Source of the DNA: Synechococcus sp. RS9909
GTDB lineage: Bacteria; Cyanobacteriota; Cyanobacteriia; PCC-6307; Cyanobiaceae
Length of the DNA stretch: 64,000 nt
Assembly: GCF_014279595.1 (NCBI RefSeq)
Contig: NZ_CP047943.1
Location: forward strand, 1,116,001-1,180,000
Direction of reading: 5' to 3'
The position numbers were made by a program, and so were the translations under genes. How positions within the stretch are numbered: position 1 is the stretch's first letter; the number at the start of each line of letters is the position of its first letter. The notes under the pieces were generated by a model that was not told where the DNA came from, did no database searches, and saw nothing but the letters and a program-made list of their open reading frames with translations. This document shows, piece after piece, positions 16,237-63,437 of this stretch.

Positions 16237-19200
16237 ATGCCCCTCAGCTCCCTGGTGCGTCTGCTGCAGAGTTCGGCGCTCACCGGAGAGTTGCTGGAAC
16301 GGCGCTGCCGAGATCAGCGTCTATTGCTCCGGGGTGGCCACAGGGCGGCGCGGGCCCTGGTGGCCACGGCCCTCGCCCGTCGCGCCGATCAGCCACTGCT
16401 TGTGGTGGTGCCGACCCTGGAGGAAGCCGGTCGCTGGACGGCGTTGCTGGAGCTGATGGGCTGGAGCAGCACCCAGCTCTATCCCACCAGCGAGGGATCG
16501 CCCTACGAACCGTTTGACCCCACCACGGAGATCACCTGGGGCCAGCTGCAGGTGCTCAGCGAACTGCAGAGCGGCAGCGACCGGCCGGATCTGGCGATCG
16601 TTGCCACCGAACGCTGCCTCCAGCCCCACCTGCCGCCACCGCAGGCGTTGGCCGAGCGCTGCCGCAGCCTGCGCAAGGGCGACACGGTCGACCTGGAAGA
16701 GCTGGCCTCCTGTCTGTCCCAACTGGGCTATGAGCGGGTGTCGAGCATCGACCAGGAGGGCACCTGGAGCCGTCGTGGCGACATCGTCGACATCTTTCCG
16801 GTGAGCAGTGAACTGCCGGTGCGGCTGGAGTTCTTTGGCGATGACCTCGACAAGCTGAGGGAATTCGACCCCGCCAGCCAGCGCTCCCTCGATGCGATCG
16901 AGAGCCTCCGTCTCACCCCCACCGGCTTCAGCCCCCTGATTGCCGAGCAGCTGCGCGAGCGGATGCCCGATGGCCTGGAGGGCCTGCTCAGCGAGCAGGC
17001 CTTGCAGGAGTTGCTTGAGGGCGGCACGCCGGAGGGGATGCGCCGCTTGATGGGCCTGGCCTGGGAAGCCCCTGCCTCCCTGCTCGACTACCTGCCCGCC
17101 CATTGCTGTGTAGCGATCGATGAACGGCGCCACGGTCGCGCCCATGGCCAGCAATGGCTTGATCACGCCGAAGAGCAGCACGGGGAGCTGGCCGCTGAGC
17201 TGAGCCAGCCCCTGCCGCTGCTGCACCGTCCGATCGAGGCGGCCATGGCCCTGGCGGAAGCCTTCGACGGGTTTGACCTGGCGGAGCTGCAGGAGAACGA
17301 CGGCCACGCCAATGCCTTTGATCTCACCAGTCGACCGGTGCCGGCCTACCCCAATCAGTTCGGGAAGCTCGGCGAGCTGGTGAAGGGCTATCAGGCCGAA
17401 AAGCAGTCGGTGTGGTTGCTTTCAGCCCAGCCCAGCCGCGCCGTCGCCCTGCTCGAGGAGCACGACTGCATCAGTCGGTTTGTGCCCAATGCCGCCGATG
17501 CGCCGGCGATTGAACGGCTGGTGGAGCAGGGCACCCCCGTGGCGCTGAAAACGAAGGGAACGGCGGAACTGGAGGGTCTGCAGCTACCCGCCTGGCGGGT
17601 GGTGTTGATCACCGACCGTGAATTCTTCGGGCAACACAACCTCGGCAGCAGCGGTTACGTGCGTCGACGGCGCAAGGCGGCCAGCCGCACGGTCGACCCC
17701 AACAAGATGCGCCCCGGTGACTACGTGGTGCATCGCAACCACGGCATCGGCCGTTTTCAAAAGCTGGAGAAACTGGCGATCAGCGGTGAGGTGCGCGACT
17801 ACCTCGTTGTGCAGTACGCCGATGGCCTCCTCCGGGTCGCCGCCGACCAGCTGGGCAGCCTGGGCCGCTTTCGCGCCAACAGCGACACTCCACCCCAACT
17901 CAGCAAGATGGGCGGCTCGGCCTGGGTGAAGGCGAAGGAGCGCGCCAGCAAGGCGGTGCGCAAGGTGGCGCTCGATCTTGTGAAGCTTTACGCCGAACGG
18001 CATCAGGCCCCGGGCTTTGCCTTTCCCGGCGATGGCCCCTGGCAGGAGGAACTCGAAGACTCCTTCCCCTATGAGCCCACGCCGGATCAGCTCAAGGCCA
18101 CGGCGGATGTGAAGCGCGACATGGAACAACCCCAGCCGATGGACCGGTTGGTGTGCGGCGATGTGGGCTTCGGCAAGACGGAGGTGGCGATCCGGGCCAT
18201 CTTCAAGGCGATCACCGCCGGCAAACAGGTGGCGATGCTCGCCCCCACCACCGTGCTTGCTCAGCAGCACTGGCGCACGTTGTCGGAACGCTTTGCCCCC
18301 TATCCGATCAAGGTGGCGCTGCTCAATCGTTTCCGCACCGCCAGCGAGCGCAAAGCCATTCTGGAGGGCCTCAAGCAGGGCACGATCGATGCGGTGGTCG
18401 GGACCCACCAGTTGCTGAGCAAGAGCACGAGCTTCGACAAGCTCGGCCTGCTGGTGGTGGATGAGGAACAGCGGTTCGGTGTGAATCAGAAGGAGAAGAT
18501 CAAGGCCCTGCGCAAGGACGTCGACGTGCTCACCCTGTCGGCGACACCGATTCCCCGCACGCTCTACATGAGCCTTTCCGGGGTGCGGGAAATGAGTCTG
18601 ATCACCACGCCGCCGCCGCTGCGTCGTCCGATCAAGACCCACCTGGCGGCCCTCGATGAGGAGGCGGTGCGCAGTGCGATCCGCCAGGAACTGGATCGCG
18701 GTGGTCAGGTGTTCTATGTGGTGCCCCGCGTGGAGGGCATCGAGGAGGTGGCAGCTCAGCTGCGCCAGATGTTGCCGGGGTTGAAGCTGCTCGTGGCCCA
18801 TGGCCAGATGGCCGAGGGAGAGCTGGAGAGCGCCATGGTGGCGTTCAACGGCGGTGAGGCGGATGTGATGCTCTGCACCACGATCGTGGAGAGCGGCCTC
18901 GACATCCCCCGGGTGAACACGATCCTGATCGAGGACGCCCATCGCTTCGGCCTGGCCCAGCTCTATCAGCTGCGCGGACGGGTGGGCCGCAGCGGCATCC
19001 AGGCCCATGCCTGGCTGTTTTACCCCGGCGATGCCTCCCTCAGCGATGCCGCCCGCCAGCGCCTGCGGGCGATCCAGGAATTCGCCCAGCTCGGCAGTGG
19101 CTATCAGCTCGCCATGCGCGACATGGAGATCCGCGGCGTTGGCAATCTGCTCGGTGTGGAGCAGAGCGGCCAGATGGAGGCGATCGGCTTCGACCTTTAC

Positions 19201-42117: not shown

Positions 42118-42202
42118 GGAGAGGTGGTCGAGTGGTTGATGGCTCTGGTCTTGAAAACCAGCGAGGTGCAAGCCTCCGTGGGTTCGAATCCCACCCTCTC
42201 CG
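42118..42202 (+). tRNA. tRNA-Ser (anticodon UGA)
   Basis: Acceptor stem GGAGAGG (42118-42124) pairs with CCTCTCC (42195-42201), with discriminator G at 42202. Anticodon stem CTGGT/ACCAG encloses loop CTTGAAA with anticodon TGA at 42152-42154. A long variable arm (GCGAGGTGCAAGCCTCCGT) marks it as a class II tRNA for serine, and the T-loop is GGGTTCGAATCCC. CCA is not encoded. The 3' end is the likely phage attachment site, as an integrase gene starts 223 bp on. Confidence 0.95.
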
Positions 42203-42425: not shown

Positions 42426-43706
42426 ATGCTCAGTGACAAGGCGATCCAGGCCCTGCGGCCCGACCCGGACCGGCCGGGCACCAAGCACCACGACCGTGAC
42501 GGTCTCTATCTCTGGGTGGCGCGCTCCGGCTCCAAGACCTGGCGCAAGGACTACCGCTGGCAGGGAGCACGCCGCACCTTCACCATCGGCCCTTACCCGG
42601 CCGTGCGGCTCGCCGATGCCCGCAAGCAGGCCCTGGAGCTGAACACCTGGATCAAAGCTGGCATCGATCCGCGCACCCAGGTCCCAACGCAGCAGCGCAA
42701 CCAGGCCGAAAGCAGCAGCCGTCCCTTCGTCCAGATCGCCCAGGCCTGGTTCGAGCACCACAGCGCCAGCTGGAGCCCCCGCTATTGCAGAGATATGCGG
42801 GAGAAACTTAATCACTTCGTGATCCCGGCACTCGGTCAACTGGATATCGAGGCGATCAGCCGCAGCGACATTGAAACCCAGCTGCTCGCGCCCATCCTCG
42901 CCAGAGGTGCCAATGAACAAGCCCGCCGCTGCAATGACGTCACCCGTCGCGTGATTGAGCACGCCGTTGATCTCGAACTGCGGCAGGACAACCCCGCCGT
43001 CAAAGCCCGCAAGGTCATCGCCGCCACCCGCGTCACCCACTACCACCGCATCAGCTGGGTGGAACTTCCCGAGCTCTTGGAGGTGATCGATCGCTTTGAG
43101 CGTCAACGACTGGCCGAGCGCAGCAGCCTCATCGCTCTGCGCCTGATGATGCTCACCCTGGTGCGGCCCAGTGAACTGCGGGAAGCCCGTTGGAGCGAAG
43201 TGGATACCGAGGGTCGTCAGTGGATCATTCCCGCTGAACGCATGAAGACCCGTGTTCGGCACATCGTGCCGCTCTCATCACAGGCGCGGCACCTATTCGA
43301 CATGCAGCGGCCGATCACCGGCCACACCGATCTGGTCTTTCACACCCCCAACCACCGCGGCAGCGGCGAGCTTCGGGTGATGAGCAATGGCTGCCTCTCG
43401 ATGCTTTTGCGGCGCATGGGCTTCCAGGGGCGGCAGACACCCCATGGCTTCAGGGGCTTCGGGCAGACCAACTGCATCGAGCAGCTCAAGATCCCCAGGG
43501 TGGTCACTGAAAAGCAGCTGGCCCATGCCGATGGCAACAGCGTTAGCCGCGCCTACGACTGGGCCGAATACCTCGAGGAGCGCTCCGACATGCTGCAGCG
43601 CTGGGCCGATCTACTCGATCAGGTGGCCGTCGCTGCCGGTCTGGCTCCCGTCTCAGAGCTGAGCGCAGCGATGGCTGGACATCCATCAGCGCTGCAGGCG
43701 GCCTGA
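42426..43706 (+). CDS. int: Tyrosine-type phage integrase (DUF4102 N-terminal domain)
   Basis: 426 residues. N-terminal P4-integrase-type domain (LSDKAIQALRPD, then GLYLWVARSGSKTWRKDYRW), a SAM-like core-binding domain (~100-190) and the catalytic domain: arginine in LTLVRPSELREARW, HGFRGFGQT with H and R, and the tyrosine in SRAYDWAEYLEERS. All expected catalytic residues are present. It would recombine the phage with the tRNA-Ser 3' end. Its last 88 bp overlap the AlpA gene on the other strand. Confidence 0.93.
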   Translation: MLSDKAIQALRPDPDRPGTKHHDRDGLYLWVARSGSKTWRKDYRWQGARRTFTIGPYPAVRLADARKQALELNTWIKAGIDPRTQVPTQQRNQAESSSRPFVQIAQAWFEHHSASWSPRYCRDMREKLNHFVIPALGQLDIEAISRSDIETQLLAPILARGANEQARRCNDVTRRVIEHAVDLELRQDNPAVKARKVIAATRVTHYHRISWVELPELLEVIDRFERQRLAERSSLIALRLMMLTLVRPSELREARWSEVDTEGRQWIIPAERMKTRVRHIVPLSSQARHLFDMQRPITGHTDLVFHTPNHRGSGELRVMSNGCLSMLLRRMGFQGRQTPHGFRGFGQTNCIEQLKIPRVVTEKQLAHADGNSVSRAYDWAEYLEERSDMLQRWADLLDQVAVAAGLAPVSELSAAMAGHPSALQAA

Positions 43707-52985: not shown

Positions 52986-53515
52986 GCCCCGAGCAGCCAC
53001 CGACAGCGGTCGCTGGCTCAGAACCAGGCACTGAGTCGCTGGATGAGCTGCGTGCTGCCCCGACCCAGCAGGACGACGACGGCAACCCGATCTGGCCGGC
53101 CGCCGACCCCAGCCGGCCAGTCGGCAAGGGCAATCCGCCCCGGGGCCGCCGCAACCCGATCCACAAACCGCGCGCCACCCACATGGAGGTGGAGACCCGC
53201 ATCGCCGAGGCGCAGCTGTGGATCGCCCAGCGGCTGCCACTTGCACAGATCAGGGAAAAAGCAGCCCAGAACTGGGGAATCACCAACATCAAAACGATCA
53301 GCCGCTATTTGGCGCTGGCGCGACAGCGAATGGTGGAAGAGCTGCTCACCGACCGGCGCCGTCACCAGGCCGAGCAGATCTTTGCCCTCAATGACTGCGC
53401 CCGCCGGGCGATGGACGCGGGCCAGTTCAACGCTGCCGTCGGCGCCTTCCGGGTGATCGCTGAGATCGGCGGGCTGCTGCGAGCCCCCATCAAGCCGCCG
53501 GAGCCACGGGCATGA
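52982..53515 (+). CDS. terS: Terminase small subunit-like protein
   Basis: 177 residues from ATG 52982. A disordered P-rich N-terminus (~1-65) is followed by a helical DNA-binding part: RIAEAQLWIAQRLPLAQIRE, KAAQNWGITNIKTISRYLAL and ARQRMVEELLTDRRRHQAEQ. Position just before terL, with an ATGA overlap, supports the small-subunit role of recognising phage DNA for packaging. The assignment is based on context more than strong motifs. Confidence 0.65.
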   Translation: MSPEQPPTAVAGSEPGTESLDELRAAPTQQDDDGNPIWPAADPSRPVGKGNPPRGRRNPIHKPRATHMEVETRIAEAQLWIAQRLPLAQIREKAAQNWGITNIKTISRYLALARQRMVEELLTDRRRHQAEQIFALNDCARRAMDAGQFNAAVGAFRVIAEIGGLLRAPIKPPEPRA

Positions 53516-55155
53516 GGACAGCTCCGGCCACAAGGGGACTACCATCGGTGCCCCTGCCCCAAACCTCTGCCGCTGCAGAGGGTGGCTTGCTGCCGGAGCT
53601 CGACCCCTGGGGCGACGCCGGCCTGCTGCACCTCCCCACAACCACCACAGCCAAGCCAGCGGAACCCCAGAGCCTGCGCAGCTTCATCGCCGAGGCCTAC
53701 CCCCGCTACGGCTTCCACCGCTGGGCCGGGCTTCTGATCGAGCTGCTGCAGGCCGTCGCCGATGGCCAGCTGGGCCGCTTGATCGTCACCTGTCCGCCCC
53801 GGCTGGGGAAGAGCCTCTTGGTCTCAAAGCTGTTCCCGGCCTACTTCCTGCAGCGCTACCCGCATCTCTTCGCGGCGATCGCGTCGTACTCGGCGGAGCT
53901 GGCCTATGCCCACTCCCGAGAGGCGCGCCACTTCTACCGGGTGACCGGCCACCTGCTGGCCCGCGATTCGGCGGCGGTGGGCAACTGGCTCACCCGGCAG
54001 CGCGGAGGCTGCATCGCTGCTGGTGTGGATGGCCCGTTCACGGGCAAGGGCTACAGCCTCGGGATCATCGACGACCCCTACAAGGGCCCTGGCGATGCCG
54101 CCAGCCCGGCGCTGCGGCAGAAGCTGATCGACTGGCTGCGCTCGGTGTGGCTCACCCGCGCCGAACCGGCCTCAGTGCTCGGGCCGGACGGCAGCACTCA
54201 GCCGAACCTCTCGGCGCAGGTGGTGGTCCTCACCCGCTGGGACCACCAGGACGTGATCGGCTGGCTGCTGGAGCAGGAGCTGGGGGAAGCCCCGCAGCAC
54301 TGGACCGTGCTGGACCTGCCGGCCATCGCTGAGGACCCGACCGATCGCCCCCAGCTGCCGCCCACCTGCACCCTGATCCCCGACTGGCGGCAGCCGGGAG
54401 AAGCCCTGTGCCCGGAGCGGTTCCCCCTGCCGGAACTGCTCAAGATCAGGGCCCGTCTCGGGGCCTACTGGTGGGCGGCGCTTTATCAGCAGCGGCCCAG
54501 CCCGGCGTCTGGATCCATCTTCCTGAGGCAGTGGATCCGGCCGCCCTTCCCCCGAGAGGGCGGCAGCCAGCGCCACTACGCCCTGCTGGCGCTTTCGTGT
54601 GACCTGAGCTTCAAGGGGGAGGCGGAGAGCGACTACTGCGGCTTCTGCCTGGCTGGCCTGCTGGCGCCACCGGCTTGGAATGCCATCCCCCGATCGGGTG
54701 AACCCCAGGGGCAGATGGCGCCAGCGGCACTTGAGATCGAGGTGCTCTGGGCCGCTCGGCACCGCTTTGGCCTGCCGGAGGTGATCCGTTTCCTGCTGGG
54801 CTGTCTGGAGGCGCTTGAGCAGCAGGGGCTGCGCCCCAATGCCGTGCTGATCGAGGACGCCGCCAACGGGCCGGCGGTGCTGCAGTCCCTGCGGCGGCGG
54901 GTGCCGGGGATGCTGCCGATCACTGCGAGAGGCAGCAAGGAAACCCGCGCCCATGCCGTCGCCCCCCTGGTGGAGTCGGGACAGATCCGCTTTCACCACC
55001 GCGCCCAGCCGCTGGTGGAGGAAGCCATTCGCTTCCCCAAGGGCAGCAAGGACCTGGTGGATGCCTTCTGCCACGGTGCCCTGTGGCTGGAGGGCCGCTA
55101 CTGGAAGGCCCAGGGCATCCAGCCGGTGGTGACACCGCTTCTGGTGAGCCGGTGA
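53512..55155 (+). CDS. terL: Terminase large subunit
   Basis: 547 residues. Packaging ATPase: Walker A CPPRLGKS (residues 94-101) and Walker B LGIIDD (183-188). The RNase H-like nuclease domain (~355-535) carries acidic residues in LSCDLSFKG (D364), LIEDAANGPAV (D449) and KDLVDAF (D517). This order is diagnostic for TerL, the motor that translocates DNA into proheads. The stop overlaps the phage sigma factor start (GTGA). Confidence 0.9.
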   Translation: MRTAPATRGLPSVPLPQTSAAAEGGLLPELDPWGDAGLLHLPTTTTAKPAEPQSLRSFIAEAYPRYGFHRWAGLLIELLQAVADGQLGRLIVTCPPRLGKSLLVSKLFPAYFLQRYPHLFAAIASYSAELAYAHSREARHFYRVTGHLLARDSAAVGNWLTRQRGGCIAAGVDGPFTGKGYSLGIIDDPYKGPGDAASPALRQKLIDWLRSVWLTRAEPASVLGPDGSTQPNLSAQVVVLTRWDHQDVIGWLLEQELGEAPQHWTVLDLPAIAEDPTDRPQLPPTCTLIPDWRQPGEALCPERFPLPELLKIRARLGAYWWAALYQQRPSPASGSIFLRQWIRPPFPREGGSQRHYALLALSCDLSFKGEAESDYCGFCLAGLLAPPAWNAIPRSGEPQGQMAPAALEIEVLWAARHRFGLPEVIRFLLGCLEALEQQGLRPNAVLIEDAANGPAVLQSLRRRVPGMLPITARGSKETRAHAVAPLVESGQIRFHHRAQPLVEEAIRFPKGSKDLVDAFCHGALWLEGRYWKAQGIQPVVTPLLVSR

Positions 55156-55853
55156 GCATGCCGATGGTGTCCGCAGTGCGGGAACATCCCAAGCCTTCCG
55201 CAGTGGAGAGCCCACGCCCTGCCGTGCTAACTCCTGCTGCTGTGCAGCTGGTGCTGCCGCTCATGGTGGTGTTGGTGGGCGATGCCGCCGGGGCGGAGCG
55301 GATGCTGCGGCGACGGCGCTATCGCAGGCCGGCGTGCCATGCCCGTGCGCAGCAGCTGGAGATCAACCTCCATGCTCCAGTGCGACACCACCCCGGAGCC
55401 CAGGGTCAGCGGCCTCAGCGCTGCAGGCCCCGGCGAGAGCGGCCGGTGCGGCCCCATGCCGCTGCCGATGCCCTGGCGCTGCAGCACAGGGACCTGGCGG
55501 AGAAGGTCGCCGGCAACTTTGCCCGCCGCACTGTCCACCCCAAGGAAGACCTGCTGCAGCTGGCGATGATCGGCTTGATCAAGGCGGCTCGACGGTATGA
55601 CCCTTCACGGGGACCGTTTCGGCCCTATGGCCGCACCTACGCCAATGGAGAAATCACCCACTTTCTGCGGGACAACGGGTTCCTGCTGAAGGTGCCGCCC
55701 ACCTGGCGGGAGATTCATGCGCGAGGGCAGCGGTTACTCACCTCAGGAGTTGGTGTCGGCGAGATGCTGGAGCAAATAGGGCTTAGCCGCGAGCAGTGGG
55801 TTCAGATTGCTGAGGCCTGCTCAGTGCGGGTGGTTGCCTTCCCTGTTGATTGA
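55152..55853 (+). CDS. Phage-encoded sigma-70 region 2 protein
   Basis: 233 residues from GTG 55152 (ATG 55158 alternative). After a basic ~100-residue N-terminus comes sigma region 2: LAEKVAGNFARRTVHPKEDL, LQLAMIGLIKAARRYDPSRG and PFRPYGRTYANGEITHFLRD, including the RNAP-core-binding and -10-melting helices. The C-terminal ~50 residues contain a possible HTH (GVGEMLEQIGLSREQWVQIA), but a standard region 4 is not obvious. It is translationally coupled to terL and may direct late transcription. Confidence 0.75.
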   Translation: MSMPMVSAVREHPKPSAVESPRPAVLTPAAVQLVLPLMVVLVGDAAGAERMLRRRRYRRPACHARAQQLEINLHAPVRHHPGAQGQRPQRCRPRRERPVRPHAAADALALQHRDLAEKVAGNFARRTVHPKEDLLQLAMIGLIKAARRYDPSRGPFRPYGRTYANGEITHFLRDNGFLLKVPPTWREIHARGQRLLTSGVGVGEMLEQIGLSREQWVQIAEACSVRVVAFPVD

Positions 55854-55938
55854 ATGCTCCTGATCAGCGGTGGGAAGTAGCTAGGTAGACACATCAGAAG
55901 CCTTTGGCCCCATCCGCTGGATCTGGATGTTGGGTGGC

Positions 55939-57246
55939 CTAAGCAACTTTCTCTGCTTCGTCCTGCGCATACTTCACGAGCCATCCCTTAGGGGTTACTT
56001 GAATTGTCTTTCGTCGCTTATCTCCTTCATCTTGTGTGCTAACCAGTAATCCAGCATCCTCTAAGTCTTTGACATGCGGACGCAAGGCCATGGAACTATT
56101 GAATTCAAACTCTTGAAAATCACTAGGAGAGAAGACGCCACCAAGGCTTACTGCGACTGAGAAGACCTCCCATGCCCGAGGTTTCAACGTTGACTGTGCA
56201 GCATTGAGTGCCGCAGACGCCTCTGCATGTAACCACTCGCTAAAGACACTGCGCTTTTCATCAAGAGTTTCTGGGAGATCACGTTCAGCCACCCATTGGC
56301 AAAAGTTATCCGCCCTTCCCAGTGTGCTACGGAGATTGCGATGCAAAATATGGTACAAGACCTCAAAGTCCTCTAAGCACAGCGGCAAATACACGCCTTG
56401 GGACTCTGGCGCGGCATAAGCAGTAAGACGTGAGCGATAGATCTCTGCAGACAAGGTGTTATCAACGCCGTCAACTTCTATTGGCGTATGCAAGAATCCT
56501 TCAAGTCGTGGGGAGGAAACTGTGCCCAGGACGATCCCGAGAGCGCCACACAAAACCCAGCGAAGACCAGGTATTACAAGAAGTCTGTCCCTGAGTTTCT
56601 CAAGAAGCTGCCGCACAGTGTCTGAAGTCTGCAATAGCTCCAAGTTGTCGATTACGCAGATAACTCCGCCATCGTTCTGAGTGGGAAACAACTGCTTCAG
56701 CCAGAGCTCAACTTCTTTGCGAAAACCACTTCGCTCAAAGCCGGACGAGGTGTTTGTTTCTGAACTTTCCCCTATGTTTGCACCATTGCCTACGATTGAG
56801 AAGCCTCCCTGCATTCCGCTGATCTGTGGCGAGTTCAGCCATTTATCGATTGGCCCTGTTTTAATTGAGTCACATAGACCTTGAATTGCCTTGGCACGAT
56901 CGATCAGAGTTTGCGCCACTGCCATTAAGACCTCGTCAATAAAGTCATCGGCATCCTTGCTTGTGTCCAACTGAAAGACCTTGTTGCATGGTATTAACAG
57001 AGGACCATTCCATCCCGAGAGACAATCTCGATACGCCTTAAACGCAGCAACATTGACCAGGCTTGTCTTTCCGACGCCATTCAGCCCTTCAATGGTCGCT
57101 ATCTTGGGCGGATTGAACAGTTTTCTTTTGAGACTGGCAAGTTCTCTTTCTCTCCCAATAAGGAGTTGCTCTCCTAGCTCAGAGGGCGGCAATGGAGTCA
57201 CCTGAAATGGGGAATCGTCAAATCTCCATTCTTGATAGATATTCAT
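55939..57246 (-). CDS. AAA/STAND-like ATPase with C-terminal winged helix; reversed cargo gene
   Basis: 435 residues on the opposite strand to all neighbours. An N-terminal IGRERELASLKRKLF box (30-44) precedes Walker A GLNGVGKT (54-61) and Walker B GGVICVIDN (193-201). The middle and C-terminal parts are helical, with a MarR-like winged helix at ~350-425 (RAWEVFSVAVSLGGVFSPSD, VKDLEDAGLLVS). The gene is clearly more AT-rich than the phage and host around it, so it was acquired separately. It sits between the phage sigma gene and the portal. The architecture of regulatory or defence ATPases fits, but no known system can be named. Confidence 0.7.
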   Translation of the reverse strand: MNIYQEWRFDDSPFQVTPLPPSELGEQLLIGRERELASLKRKLFNPPKIATIEGLNGVGKTSLVNVAAFKAYRDCLSGWNGPLLIPCNKVFQLDTSKDADDFIDEVLMAVAQTLIDRAKAIQGLCDSIKTGPIDKWLNSPQISGMQGGFSIVGNGANIGESSETNTSSGFERSGFRKEVELWLKQLFPTQNDGGVICVIDNLELLQTSDTVRQLLEKLRDRLLVIPGLRWVLCGALGIVLGTVSSPRLEGFLHTPIEVDGVDNTLSAEIYRSRLTAYAAPESQGVYLPLCLEDFEVLYHILHRNLRSTLGRADNFCQWVAERDLPETLDEKRSVFSEWLHAEASAALNAAQSTLKPRAWEVFSVAVSLGGVFSPSDFQEFEFNSSMALRPHVKDLEDAGLLVSTQDEGDKRRKTIQVTPKGWLVKYAQDEAEKVA

Positions 57247-57615
57247 GACTCCTATGATTGTTAATGGCCTGTGTGCGAGACTCTAGCTAAGATTTTGGCT
57301 TTGCCAAGCGCCTCTAGGCAGTCCTCCTAACGCTATATGAGCGGATCCTCGGTAAAAAATAGCCAGGCCCCTGTTGATCCGTATAAGAACTCGAAGTCAT
57401 TACCGGTTTAACCCTAAACCAACTGCGTAGTAATCACCCTCGGGCAGATGGCTCATCAAGCCTGGTTCATATGCGGACCCGCATATGAACCCTTGCCCCT
57501 CGTCCTGGCCGAGCCGCTTACCCGGATGATCTGACTGGAACCCTGCAGATTCTGCATAGCTTTCCCGGTTGCCAATCACGGCCTCTGGCAATGGCTTCGA
57601 CCCCACCAGCAGCCC
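57247..57615. other. AT-richer intergenic region between the AAA ATPase and portal genes
   Basis: 369 bp without a convincing gene. Its composition resembles the AAA ATPase gene at the left side and becomes GC-rich near the portal. The one striking element is the perfect dyad at 57464-57491. It should contain the AAA gene promoter (reading left) and may contain the portal operon promoter (reading right); TATATGAG (57335) and TAAAAAAT (57353) are AT-rich spots. Confidence 0.6.
57464..57491. repeat. Perfect 28-bp dyad GGTTCATATGCGG-AC-CCGCATATGAACC
   Basis: Two 13-bp arms are exact inverse complements with a 2-bp spacer. There is no T-run, so it is not a classical terminator. Its length and perfection suggest a protein-binding site, a recombination site or the footprint of the AAA gene insertion. 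It is 125 bp before the portal start. Confidence 0.75.
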
Positions 57616-59193
57616 GTGCCCACCACCCGCCGCCGCAGGACAACTACCCCCAGCAGCCCCTCCTCCCCACCAGCGCTGCAGCTCCAAGCCCCTGACCAGC
57701 CCCCCTGGCTGGAACACCCCACCCTCTCGGGTCTGAGGGACCGTCTCCAGCTGGTCTACGACTGCTGGACCCTGCTGGAGCTGCCTGACGGCACCAGCCG
57801 CCGGTCGGTGTATCTGCCCCGCGGCATCGAGGAGCCAGAGACCTGTTATCTCAAGCGCCTGGAAGCGGCCCGGCCCACCAGCTTCTACCGCGATGCCCTG
57901 CGCACCTACGCGGGGATGCTGTCGCGCCTGAGCTGGCAGGAGCTTCCTGATTCGCTAAGCCGGGTGGCCACCGACGTGGACGGCCAGGGCACGGATCTGG
58001 GGGTGTTCCTGTTCCTGGCCGACCTGCTCACCCTGCGGGATGGCGGCTGTCTGATCCTGCAGCTGCCGCCCCAGCACCACTGGCCTTCAGAAGGGGACCG
58101 GCTGGAAGCCCTCGCCAAGGGCGATCGGCTTTCGCTGCCGCGGCTGCAGCTGGTGCCCAGGGGCGACCTGCTCAACTGGCGCCTGCCCACCGATGGCACC
58201 AGCGGTGCGCCGGCATCGGGTCCGGTGGAGATCGTCTGGCGGGAGCCGCGCCGCCAGGCCCTGCCGCCCCGCTTCGCCACTGGCAATGCCGCCGTGGCCA
58301 CGGTCGTGCTCGATGCCCACGGCGGGCTGGTGCCGGACCCGCAGGCTTGGCTCTACCGCAGCCTGTCGCTGAGCGACGACGGCCTGGTGCTGCGCAGCTG
58401 GCAGGCCAACCCCAATCCCGGTGCTGCCGATGGCTACGACGTGGTGCCGGTGGGGGAGCCGGAACGGATGCCCCAGCGCTTTGACATACCGGCCCTCTGG
58501 TACTCGGTGGATGGCACCGCCTTTGGTGAGGGCGACCTTCCCCACCTGGGCCTGGCGCACCAGTACCTCAACCACTACCGCTGCCGCAGCGAATACGAAG
58601 ACCTTCTCTCCCGCACGGCCCTGCCGGTGGGTGTGCGCACGGGCCTGGTGGATGCCTACGGCTTCCGCCGCAGTGATGGCGCCCTCGGCTCTGGTGCAGG
58701 GACAGGGGGAACAGATGCCCAACGCCCCCAGCGGCTGGTGCTCTCCACCTCCTCCTTCATGGACTTGCCGGAGGGCGCCACGTTCCAGTGGGTCGAAATA
58801 GAAGCCCGGTCACTGGCAGAGCACCGGGCCTACCTGCAGCAGCTGGAGGAGGCCATGCGCCGCGACGCCCTGATCCCCGCCGGCGGCCACGGTCCAGCCC
58901 GCACCGAGCTGGAGATTTCCCTGACTGCCGGCCAGAGCTTTGCAGTGCTGCAGTCGCTGGCGGGCCAGAAGAGTTCGATGCTCAGCACCCTGCTGCGCCA
59001 GTGGACCCGCCTCACTGGCGAAAAGCTTGCGGACACGCCGGCCTGCAGCGTGGAGATCTGCCCGCTGGTGCCGCCGCAGCCACCGCGCAAACCCCAGCCC
59101 TCGGTGCAGGAGTGGCTGGTGCTGCATGAGCGGGGGGTGATCGACGGCGTGGAGCTGCGCCAGCAGCTGGGGATCGATGGCAACGCTGACTGA
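57616..59193 (+). CDS. Phage portal protein (DUF4055-like)
   Basis: 525 residues from GTG 57616. After a polar start, LSGLRDRLQLVYDCWTLLEL and RSVYLPRGIEEPETCYLKRL lead into the portal core (FYRDALRTYAGMLSRLSW). FLADLLTLRDGGCLILQLPP, LWYSVDGTAFGEGDLPHLGL, AHQYLNHYRCRSEYEDLLSR and the C-terminal stem/crown part fit DUF4055 portals of siphovirus-like phages. The portal is the dodecameric ring through which DNA enters the head. terL is nearby, separated by the sigma and AAA genes. Confidence 0.8.
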   Translation: MPTTRRRRTTTPSSPSSPPALQLQAPDQPPWLEHPTLSGLRDRLQLVYDCWTLLELPDGTSRRSVYLPRGIEEPETCYLKRLEAARPTSFYRDALRTYAGMLSRLSWQELPDSLSRVATDVDGQGTDLGVFLFLADLLTLRDGGCLILQLPPQHHWPSEGDRLEALAKGDRLSLPRLQLVPRGDLLNWRLPTDGTSGAPASGPVEIVWREPRRQALPPRFATGNAAVATVVLDAHGGLVPDPQAWLYRSLSLSDDGLVLRSWQANPNPGAADGYDVVPVGEPERMPQRFDIPALWYSVDGTAFGEGDLPHLGLAHQYLNHYRCRSEYEDLLSRTALPVGVRTGLVDAYGFRRSDGALGSGAGTGGTDAQRPQRLVLSTSSFMDLPEGATFQWVEIEARSLAEHRAYLQQLEEAMRRDALIPAGGHGPARTELEISLTAGQSFAVLQSLAGQKSSMLSTLLRQWTRLTGEKLADTPACSVEICPLVPPQPPRKPQPSVQEWLVLHERGVIDGVELRQQLGIDGNAD

Positions 59194-59230: not shown

Positions 59231-59719
59231 TCACTCCCCACAGCGATCCAGCACGGCCTGGATCACCGCCGGTGCAATGCGGAAATCGCTGGCATGCAGT
59301 GCAGCGAACACGGCTCTGGCAGAGGCGATCAGGCCGCGTTGGCGGGCCAGGCCGATCACGGCAGCGGTGCCGGCCACGCTGAGGCCGAGCTCCTGGCCCA
59401 CCGCTCGACCGGCGCGCTCATCGATCAACAGCAGCACCGGCTCGCCGCAGCCCAGAGCCAGGCGGATGCTGGCCGCCTCCCCCTCGTCGAGATCGGGTAG
59501 CGCCGGCTCGCTGGTGTCAATCGCGGTGGCCTGCAACCAGCCCGCCGCGAGGGCCTGCTGGATCGGGGCTTCCGTATCTGGATAGCGGCCCGTGAGCACC
59601 TCAGCCAGCACCACATCGGTGACCACAACCTCGGTGAACAGCTGCTGCAGCCAGAGCAGCCCGTTCACCCGGGCCAGCGCGATCAGCGGGCTGGCGTCGC
59701 TGATGACGATTGCAGCCAC
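59231..59719 (-). CDS. DUF3368 PIN-like toxin
   Basis: 162 residues from GTG 59719. PIN-like acidic residues are visible: VISDASPLIALARV (first Asp), TDVVLAEVLTG (Glu), DLDEGEAASIRLAL and LLIDERAGRAVGQELGL. DUF3368 proteins are predicted RNase toxins paired with UPF0175 antitoxins. The gene is on the opposite strand to the portal and overlaps the antitoxin gene by 37 bp. Confidence 0.8.
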   Translation of the reverse strand: MAAIVISDASPLIALARVNGLLWLQQLFTEVVVTDVVLAEVLTGRYPDTEAPIQQALAAGWLQATAIDTSEPALPDLDEGEAASIRLALGCGEPVLLLIDERAGRAVGQELGLSVAGTAAVIGLARQRGLIASARAVFAALHASDFRIAPAVIQAVLDRCGE

Positions 59720-60045
59720 TGTTCCAGGGTGTCGAGATCGGCGTTGGTTTCAGCGGCCGTGAGCCGGATCGCAGGGATGCCCAGGCGGCCGAGGTGGGAG
59801 ATGAAACTGGCCACATCCATCTCGGCCACGCGGGCAGAGCGCACCAGCGACAGCTCACCATCGCGGAACAGGGCCGTCGCCAGCGCTGCCCGCACACCCG
59901 GCGCCTGCAGCACGCCCCCCTCTTCCAGGCCGATCAGCAACGCATCGGGATGGTCGCGGTTGAGCACCACGACCGGGCCGCTCCTGGCTTGACGTAGTGC
60001 CTCAGCGGGGTTGTGCTTGAGCCCGCTCATGCTCACCGCATGCAT
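59683..60045 (-). CDS. Phd-like/UPF0175-like antitoxin
   Basis: 120 residues from ATG 60045, with GGAGGG 9-14 bases upstream. The N-terminal ~45 residues resemble a Phd DNA-binding fold (SGLKHNPAEALRQARSGPVV, then VLNRDHPDALLIGLEE). The C-terminal half (SARVAEMDVASFISHLGRLG, then IPAIRLTAAETNADLDTLEQ) is UPF0175-like. It is the partner of the DUF3368 toxin downstream and would neutralise it and repress the operon. Confidence 0.75.
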   Translation of the reverse strand: MHAVSMSGLKHNPAEALRQARSGPVVVLNRDHPDALLIGLEEGGVLQAPGVRAALATALFRDGELSLVRSARVAEMDVASFISHLGRLGIPAIRLTAAETNADLDTLEQWLQSSSATPAR

Positions 60046-62809: not shown

Positions 62810-63055
62810 ATGGCCACTGTGACGCTCACCAGCAAAGGGCAGCTGACGATTCCGCGGCAGTTGCGAGACGCGCTCGGCCTGACGCCAGGGGCCAGGTTGC
62901 AGGCTTCCATCGATCGGAATGGCCGGTTGGTGCTGGTGCCCTCCAAGTACGAGCCTGAGGACCTGTTCCGGGACCGCCCCAAGGTGCATCGGGTGATGAC
63001 CACCGACGACATGGACCGGGCCATTGCCCGGGCGGTTGGCGGTGAGGACGCTTGA
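62810..63055 (+). CDS. AbrB/MazE-type antitoxin
   Basis: 81 residues from ATG 62810. SpoVT-AbrB fold at residues 1-45: ATVTLTSKGQLTIPRQLRDA, LGLTPGARLQASIDRNGRLV. The C-terminal ~30 residues (SKYEPEDLFRDRPKVHRVMT) bind the PIN toxin. The operator-like palindrome lies just upstream. Its stop overlaps the toxin start by 14 bp. Confidence 0.85.
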   Translation: MATVTLTSKGQLTIPRQLRDALGLTPGARLQASIDRNGRLVLVPSKYEPEDLFRDRPKVHRVMTTDDMDRAIARAVGGEDA

Positions 63056-63437
63056 TACCAACGTGGTGGTGCGGCTGCTGATCGGGGACGATCCGCAGCA
63101 GACCCCGATCGCCGAACAGGCCTTTCTTGATGCCATCGCCAGCGGCGGTGTGTACCTGCCGGATGTGGTGCTGGCTGAGGTGGCCTGGGTGCTGCGGGGC
63201 TACGACCTCGAGCGCGCAACCCGCTACCAACTGCTGGAGCGGCTGGTGCGCACCCGTGGCGTTGTGGTGGATGACATCGACGCGGTGATCGATGCCCTCG
63301 AGCAGTTCCGCCTGGGAGGAGATCTGGCCGATCAGCTGATCCTGGCCCGGGCCGCCGGCACCGGTGCCCTGCCGGTGCTCAGCTTTGACCGTCGGTTCGC
63401 CGCCTCAGAAGGTGTTGAGCTGCTCAGCCCAGGTTGA
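63042..63437 (+). CDS. PIN-domain (VapC-like) toxin
   Basis: 131 residues from GTG 63042 inside the antitoxin 3' end. PIN residues are present: LDTNVVVRLLIGDD (first Asp), LPDVVLAEVAWVL (Glu), GGDLADQLILARA (Asp) and LSFDRRFA (C-terminal Asp). Such toxins are RNases cutting tRNA or mRNA. With the AbrB antitoxin it can stabilise the prophage. Confidence 0.87.
   Translation: MRTLDTNVVVRLLIGDDPQQTPIAEQAFLDAIASGGVYLPDVVLAEVAWVLRGYDLERATRYQLLERLVRTRGVVVDDIDAVIDALEQFRLGGDLADQLILARAAGTGALPVLSFDRRFAASEGVELLSPG

Follow-up and report, generated by a model that had tools for sequence, protein, structure and literature searches.

Phages carry hot spots for morons and other accessory genes, where variable cargo, often including defence genes, occupies one point of the genome. 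Integron cassettes reportedly encode anti-phage systems, going by the titles of Darracq 2025 and Kieffer 2025. Integron components have been catalogued within phage genomes: according to the main text of Qi et al. 2023 (PMC9892861), 10,705 phage genomes yielded 3 complete integrons, one In0 and 17 CALINs, and that main text contains 0 occurrences of "cyanobacteri" and of "Synechococcus". A passage of PMC8352920 indicates that attC models for cyanobacteria exist. Here we describe a reversed, AT-rich gene of Synechococcus sp. RS9909 which, judged from its sequence, is very probably an integron cassette put by an integron integrase (IntI) into an attI-like site between the sigma and portal genes of a prophage.

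A reversed AT-rich gene and its prophage surroundings

The window analysed, a stretch of 64,000 nucleotides, belongs to the RS9909 genome, which is one contig of 2.6 Mb. The gene lies among the following features:

53512–55155, plus strand: prophage terminase large subunit
55083–55853, plus strand: prophage sigma-70 region 2 ORF, with the crossover point one base beyond its stop codon
55939–57246, minus strand: cassette ORF of 435 aa, P-loop ATPase-like with a C-terminal MarR-like winged helix, all matches being weak
57280–57307, minus strand: TTGGCA-16-TAGAGT in the cassette leader, a possible promoter no commoner than chance would give (1 found, 1.3 expected)
57616–59193, plus strand: portal gene (PHROG 145, DUF4055), the other flank of the cassette site

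An earlier note on this DNA had described a gene of low GC running against the phage genes, and both points were borne out. The ORF is on the minus strand, opposite the plus-strand phage genes, with terminase and sigma on one side and the portal on the other; its GC content is 0.489 vs 0.660 for the window, and the dip extends from ~55.75 to 57.5 kb in 500-base windows. The ORF is more than a chance reading frame, given a homologue of 87% identity and a dN/dS of ~0.07 against that homologue (crude count), a ratio which also suggests that the protein is being kept. Scans for promoters and terminators gave results at chance level.

The element around the ORF looks like a prophage, because a tRNA-Ser gene (42118–42202) is followed by an ORF (42426–43706) which we take, from its sequence, to be tyrosine-integrase-like. 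A right end in the form of a tRNA repeat was sought in the window and in loci L049, L050 and L081, and was not found there. Two small gene pairs among the head genes, at 59231–60045 (minus strand) and 62810–63437 (plus strand), are presumably PIN-type toxin-antitoxin-like; the first recurs in L060 with 91 and 93% identity.

Cassette boundaries, attC and the attI-like site

Among 300 family genomes sampled, 10 contained a match to the 435-aa protein, and two of these matches were close: that of RS9909 itself and the 87%-identical homologue, which belongs to Cyanobium sp. Morenito 9A2. The Morenito gene is one of several consecutive ORFs, all on one strand, that follow an integron integrase gene (466 bits to TIGR02249, cut-off 265), outside any phage gene cluster seen. 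These ORFs are separated by 85–90-nt repeats with RYYYAAC-like and GCGTTRG-like ends, which we read as putative attC sites. Among the products of the cassettes past the homologue (L012, 9407–15480) are a DUF6988 protein, a TIR-TPR protein and, paired with a small partner, a GmrSD_N protein. When aligned, the window and Morenito cassettes were 78% identical (1166 of 1490 columns), and by eye this similarity spans the cassette and stops at its ends, the flanks being unrelated.

We built a covariance model (R1) from the eight attC sites of the Morenito array only. Across the window it returned a single match (E up to 1), at 55849–55935 on the minus strand, with 47.9 bits and an E-value of 1.8e-11, beginning three bases past the stop codon of the 435-aa gene. 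The locus is delimited as follows:

55855–57330, minus strand: gene cassette of 1476 nt, running from G^TTAGG (its first T at 57330) to the final attC base at 55855
55849–55935, minus strand: attC of the cassette, with core ATT instead of GTT, its last bases overlapping the sigma stop codon
57327–57348, minus strand: attI-like core and left cassette boundary, GGATCCGCTCATATAGCG^TTAG, with 1 mismatch to the integrase-side pattern
57349–57615, minus strand: remainder of the attI region on the phage side, reaching the portal start and conserved in some of the elements

In an alignment of 30 attC sites, which was fitted to the model and of which eight rows are the model's own training sites, 17 of 22 hairpin pairs were changed on both sides, a value as high being reached by 0 of 500 shuffles. 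The fold of the window attC by itself does not stand out (z −1.5, with 15 of 200 shuffles reaching as low a value), which counts against our reading. The window holds two features of an integron gene cassette: an ORF followed by an attC site (by model match and covariation), and a counterpart of this unit in an integron array, that of Morenito 9A2. It is neither a complete integron (intI, attI and attC), as it contains no intI, nor a CALIN (at least two attC without intI), as it contains one attC. The left cassette end reads GCG^TTAGG and the right, sigma-side junction GCA^TTCA; at or beside the sigma stop codon, 10 of 24 junctions read GCG^TTCA. Since the sigma-end core of the window is ATT, excision may be blocked and the cassette locked in.

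From the portal start, ~280 nt are common to the window and some relatives, ending in GGATCCGCYCATATAGCG^TTAG, after which the sequences diverge. An attI core pattern was derived from sites downstream of integrase genes in other family genomes, where the core is present at 10 of 31 integrase loci. It has one match in the window, with one mismatch, against 0.03 expected at up to three mismatches. The phage site hence resembles the attI of related integrons, and in the window it has no adjacent intI. Across 12 genomes, a related pattern matched 13 times, vs 3 for a reversed-pattern control; by position, six of the 13 lie near portals of the element family (five within 0.3 kb, one 2 kb away), four beside IntI genes or fragments and three elsewhere. 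Cores away from the listed portals and IntI genes lie at G062:C1:2762756, G102:C1:286503 and G102:C1:1767987.

Within six mismatches, the core was found in 13 of 31 elements, while 300 shuffled stretches had 7 to 11 mismatches to it; the 18 elements lacking it count against our reading. Among the 13, which were chosen for having the core, mean identity was 0.49 over the 41 nt that precede it, the core itself excluded, vs 0.25 after the crossover (78 pairs), and 0.56 over 60 nt before the crossover with the core included. That no empty site and no recombination were seen likewise counts against our reading.

A variable interval in one phage lineage

Portal relatives are present in 46 of 201 family genomes; 10 viral contigs also carry them, at 90–94% identity, and those of the isolated phages PSS2, S-CBS2 and S-CRES1-3 are distant (28–30%). 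The sigma-portal interval holds differing cargo of 0.7 to 7 kb in 29 elements, the window and 28 others, among which L054 and L076 are near-copies; L051 was excluded from interval counts, as sigma is absent from its stretch. Model R1 (E up to 0.1) placed attC in 15 of these 29 intervals, and of its 21 matches in 30 loci, 20 fall inside the interval, on the strand opposite the portal. With R2, trained with the R1 hits added, attC was found in 16 intervals, and 25 of 26 matches lay inside. The union of both models gives attC in 18 of 29 intervals; the 11 with none by either model count against the proposed origin. On the viral contig L078, an attC match at 16350–16434 falls outside the sigma-portal interval.

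In the RS9909 genome, R2 detected at least three attC sites: that of the window, one at 378742 and one at 1193730. Whole-genome searches scored 150 of 721 and, for this R2 search, 150 of 787 candidates, and sites may have been missed. The site at 378742 lies in the sigma-portal interval of a second element of this genome, and that at 1193730 beside a portal remnant. Around the latter, L081 14731–16080 (1193.7–1195.3 kb of the genome) comprises the portal remnant, an attI-like core with 4 mismatches and an attC match; L081 also carries, by eye, a reversed ParA-like ORF.

The same genome encodes one IntI over the cut-off, between the portal and sigma of the second element, plus three weaker partial matches elsewhere. 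This second element (L049, 14630–18834) contains an intact intI, a cassette ORF and an insertion-sequence-like ORF pair, and its attC match overlaps the end of sigma. IntI fragments occupy the sigma-portal place in L066. Coordinates put them there in G082, G137 and G163 too (less broken in the last), and inspection by eye does so in L065 and L068. We also considered whether intact integrase genes stand as a rule beside this portal, and rejected it, with 0 of 30 other integrase loci doing so (1.5-kb flanks), a result that also counts against our reading. The ten loci with the phage-type core all fall within one 14-row IntI clade; the RS9909 IntI belongs to a seven-row clade whose attI type differs from the phage site, which counts against its having served here. 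Because of this difference in clade, the matching integrase was probably supplied by another host or element. In viral contigs, IntI relatives were found at 5 loci, with at most 54% identity.

The earlier note had taken the gene for a moron at a late-gene junction. A foreign, exchangeable accessory gene it is, but that description overlooked that both of its ends resemble integron recombination sites. Were it an ordinary moron, a single foreign gene acquired by illegitimate recombination with only incidental likeness to attC and attI, one could point to the opposite strand, the low GC and the lone gene, to the single attC with an altered core in the window copy, and to the cargo of several relatives that has no attC. 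We consider this highly improbable, as the similarity to Morenito is cassette-wide and ends at the cassette ends, the attC match has an E-value of 1.8e-11, the attI-like core was expected 0.03 times, and attC recurs in 18 of 29 intervals. Nor are the homologues always fixed late genes, the close one residing in an integron and sibling phages carrying other genes at this place. Integrase-mediated entry could also have used a non-classical genomic (attG) site, a frequently used target rather than a true attI. Cassette insertion at attG is reportedly a described route (Loot et al. 2024), and the window site has no adjoining intI; the phage site, however, fits the core seen next to integrase genes, and some relatives have IntI, whole or in fragments, at the same place, making this very unlikely. 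The sequences themselves show the cassette boundaries, the attC, the attI-like core, the presence of this cassette in a true integron and the variable cargo of relatives, and integrase-mediated insertion at an attI-like site is the explanation we prefer.

Slot cargo, the 435-aa protein and known systems

To describe what the interval carries, we assembled a cargo set of 51 proteins of at least 120 aa, window protein included, which excludes portal-strand ORFs, the L049 IntI antisense and IS ORFs, and three L076 ORFs with lengths like those of L054. Forty of the 50 other proteins were scanned singly; the 10 smaller ones were left out, so that L059, L069 and L076 are unrepresented. PADLOC (E 1e-10 or better) matched 12 of the 40, in 8 of the 25 intervals represented, and left 28 without a match, vs none of 10 core proteins from the window prophage, core genes being a soft control for accessory ones. 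The matches were:

L053: PDC-S11/S14
L054 and L064: LmuAB
L055: PDC-S59
L057: IetAS
L062: AriA/OLD-like
L066: Mrr type IV
L074: HEC-06-like

Pfam additionally assigned cargo to ABC-three-component and HEPN families. By these profile matches, the sigma-portal place is one that collects putative defence genes. Only three of the eight PADLOC-matching intervals (L053, L066 and L074) have attC; L054 has none, though its near-copy L076 does, and L055, L057, L062 and L064 have neither attC nor core. Travel as cassettes is thus shown for some only of the defence genes found there, which counts against our reading.

The 435-aa protein has a complete Walker A motif, GLNGVGKTS. The earlier note had credited it with a complete Walker B as well, which holds only in part, since by eye the residue after the aspartate of the Walker B-like VICVID is N. 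Its putative C-terminal winged helix is echoed by HTH_27 (22.1 bits, cut-off 22.2) and MarR (16.5 vs 24.6), both below the Pfam cut-offs, as are AAA_16 (26.3 bits, gathering cut-off 32.6), nSTAND6 (14.8 vs 27.7) and nSTAND1 (13.3 vs 27.1). A seven-row profile gave weak matches at two places: the P-loop region resembled ClpB-type AAA proteins (best E 9e-5), and the C-terminus SlyA/MarR winged helices (3.5e-4). Structure prediction from two sequences gave a pLDDT of 37.8 and no usable model.

Two homologues are carried by plasmids: a full-length one (33%) in Curtobacterium, and a shorter one (37%) in Paraburkholderia that adjoins TniQ, TniB and Mu-transposase-like genes. With a four-row profile, 1 of 386 genomes of a phylum sample matched, RS9909 itself. 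Homologues in other phages, which the earlier note had proposed looking for, were not found in viral contigs (four queries) or in a phage collection. More distant homologues (19–25%) belong to a family 41–100% identical to one member, and their loci (3–4 kb) gave no attC match. This distant AAA plus winged-helix family (L082–L090; 24% to the window protein in L084) is chromosomal, and in two genomes lies between a helicase gene and purB.

What the protein does can be proposed only tentatively: from its context, it may be a sensor or switch that depends on ATP and binds DNA through one end, and it possibly protects the lysogen. A role in superinfection defence, with the sensor acting against other phages, is conceivable but doubtful. 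It would fit the LmuAB, IetAS, AriA/OLD-like, Mrr, HEC-06-like and PDC-S11/S14/S59 matches among sibling cargo, the TIR-TPR and GmrSD_N proteins of nearby Morenito cassettes, the sparse distribution and the homologues on plasmids. Against it stand the unusable structure model, the 28 of 40 cargo proteins without a PADLOC match, and the window protein itself, for which PADLOC 2.0.0 returned no profile match (best E 0.014, none at 1e-5); we further lowered our estimate because so few PADLOC-matching intervals have attC. The undescribed anti-phage system suspected earlier thus suits part of the sibling cargo, while the window protein gives no such match. The protein could instead be a transcription regulator, an ATPase-gated MarR-like repressor of phage or host genes with no part in defence. 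The weak MarR/SlyA match at the C-terminus and the chromosomal, in two genomes helicase-purB, setting of the distant family of like make-up speak for it; against it, one would hardly expect a regulator specific to the phage to reside in a mobile cassette. This too we regard as a guarded possibility.

For the slot as a whole, we posit that many members of the lineage would keep an attI-like site with no integrase gene alongside. An integrase from a host integron or another prophage would be supplied in trans and would join a circular cassette, through its folded attC, to the phage site, which would allow cassettes to be exchanged at one point just beyond the sigma stop codon. The cargo, including the ATPase with its DNA-binding end, would protect the lysogen from other phages. 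Insertion by IntI, its action in trans and the protective role of the cargo are all inferred here. Whether cyanobacterial temperate phages have in this way domesticated an integron attI slot, taking up anti-phage cassettes from host integrons via IntI in trans, seems to us evenly balanced, our estimate being held down by the three of eight intervals with known defence matches that have attC. If true, these phages would gain a sequence-defined port to the integron cassette pool, gene movement between chromosomal integrons and phages would be easier to explain, and the sigma-portal interval would be a simple place to find accessory, perhaps defence, genes in cyanobacterial phages.

Several described systems come close. 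Moron hot spots are alike in their variable cargo, but here the exchange points resemble integron recombination sites. The chromosomal integron of Morenito 9A2 holds the same cassette with the same attC type; it differs in that the window has a single prophage cassette with no adjoining intI. Compared with defence cassettes in integrons (Darracq 2025, Kieffer 2025), the platform here is itself part of a phage. The phage integrons and CALINs, as presented in the main text of PMC9892861, are alike in having attC, attI and IntI components within phage genomes, whereas here there is one recurrent site, in one phage lineage, mostly with no adjoining intI. Among the integron, phage and cyanobacteria papers listed, titles and opening lines of abstracts contained no description of a fixed, mostly integrase-less phage slot. 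Integron parts in phages are thus already known, and their arrangement as such a slot between sigma and portal is seemingly new.
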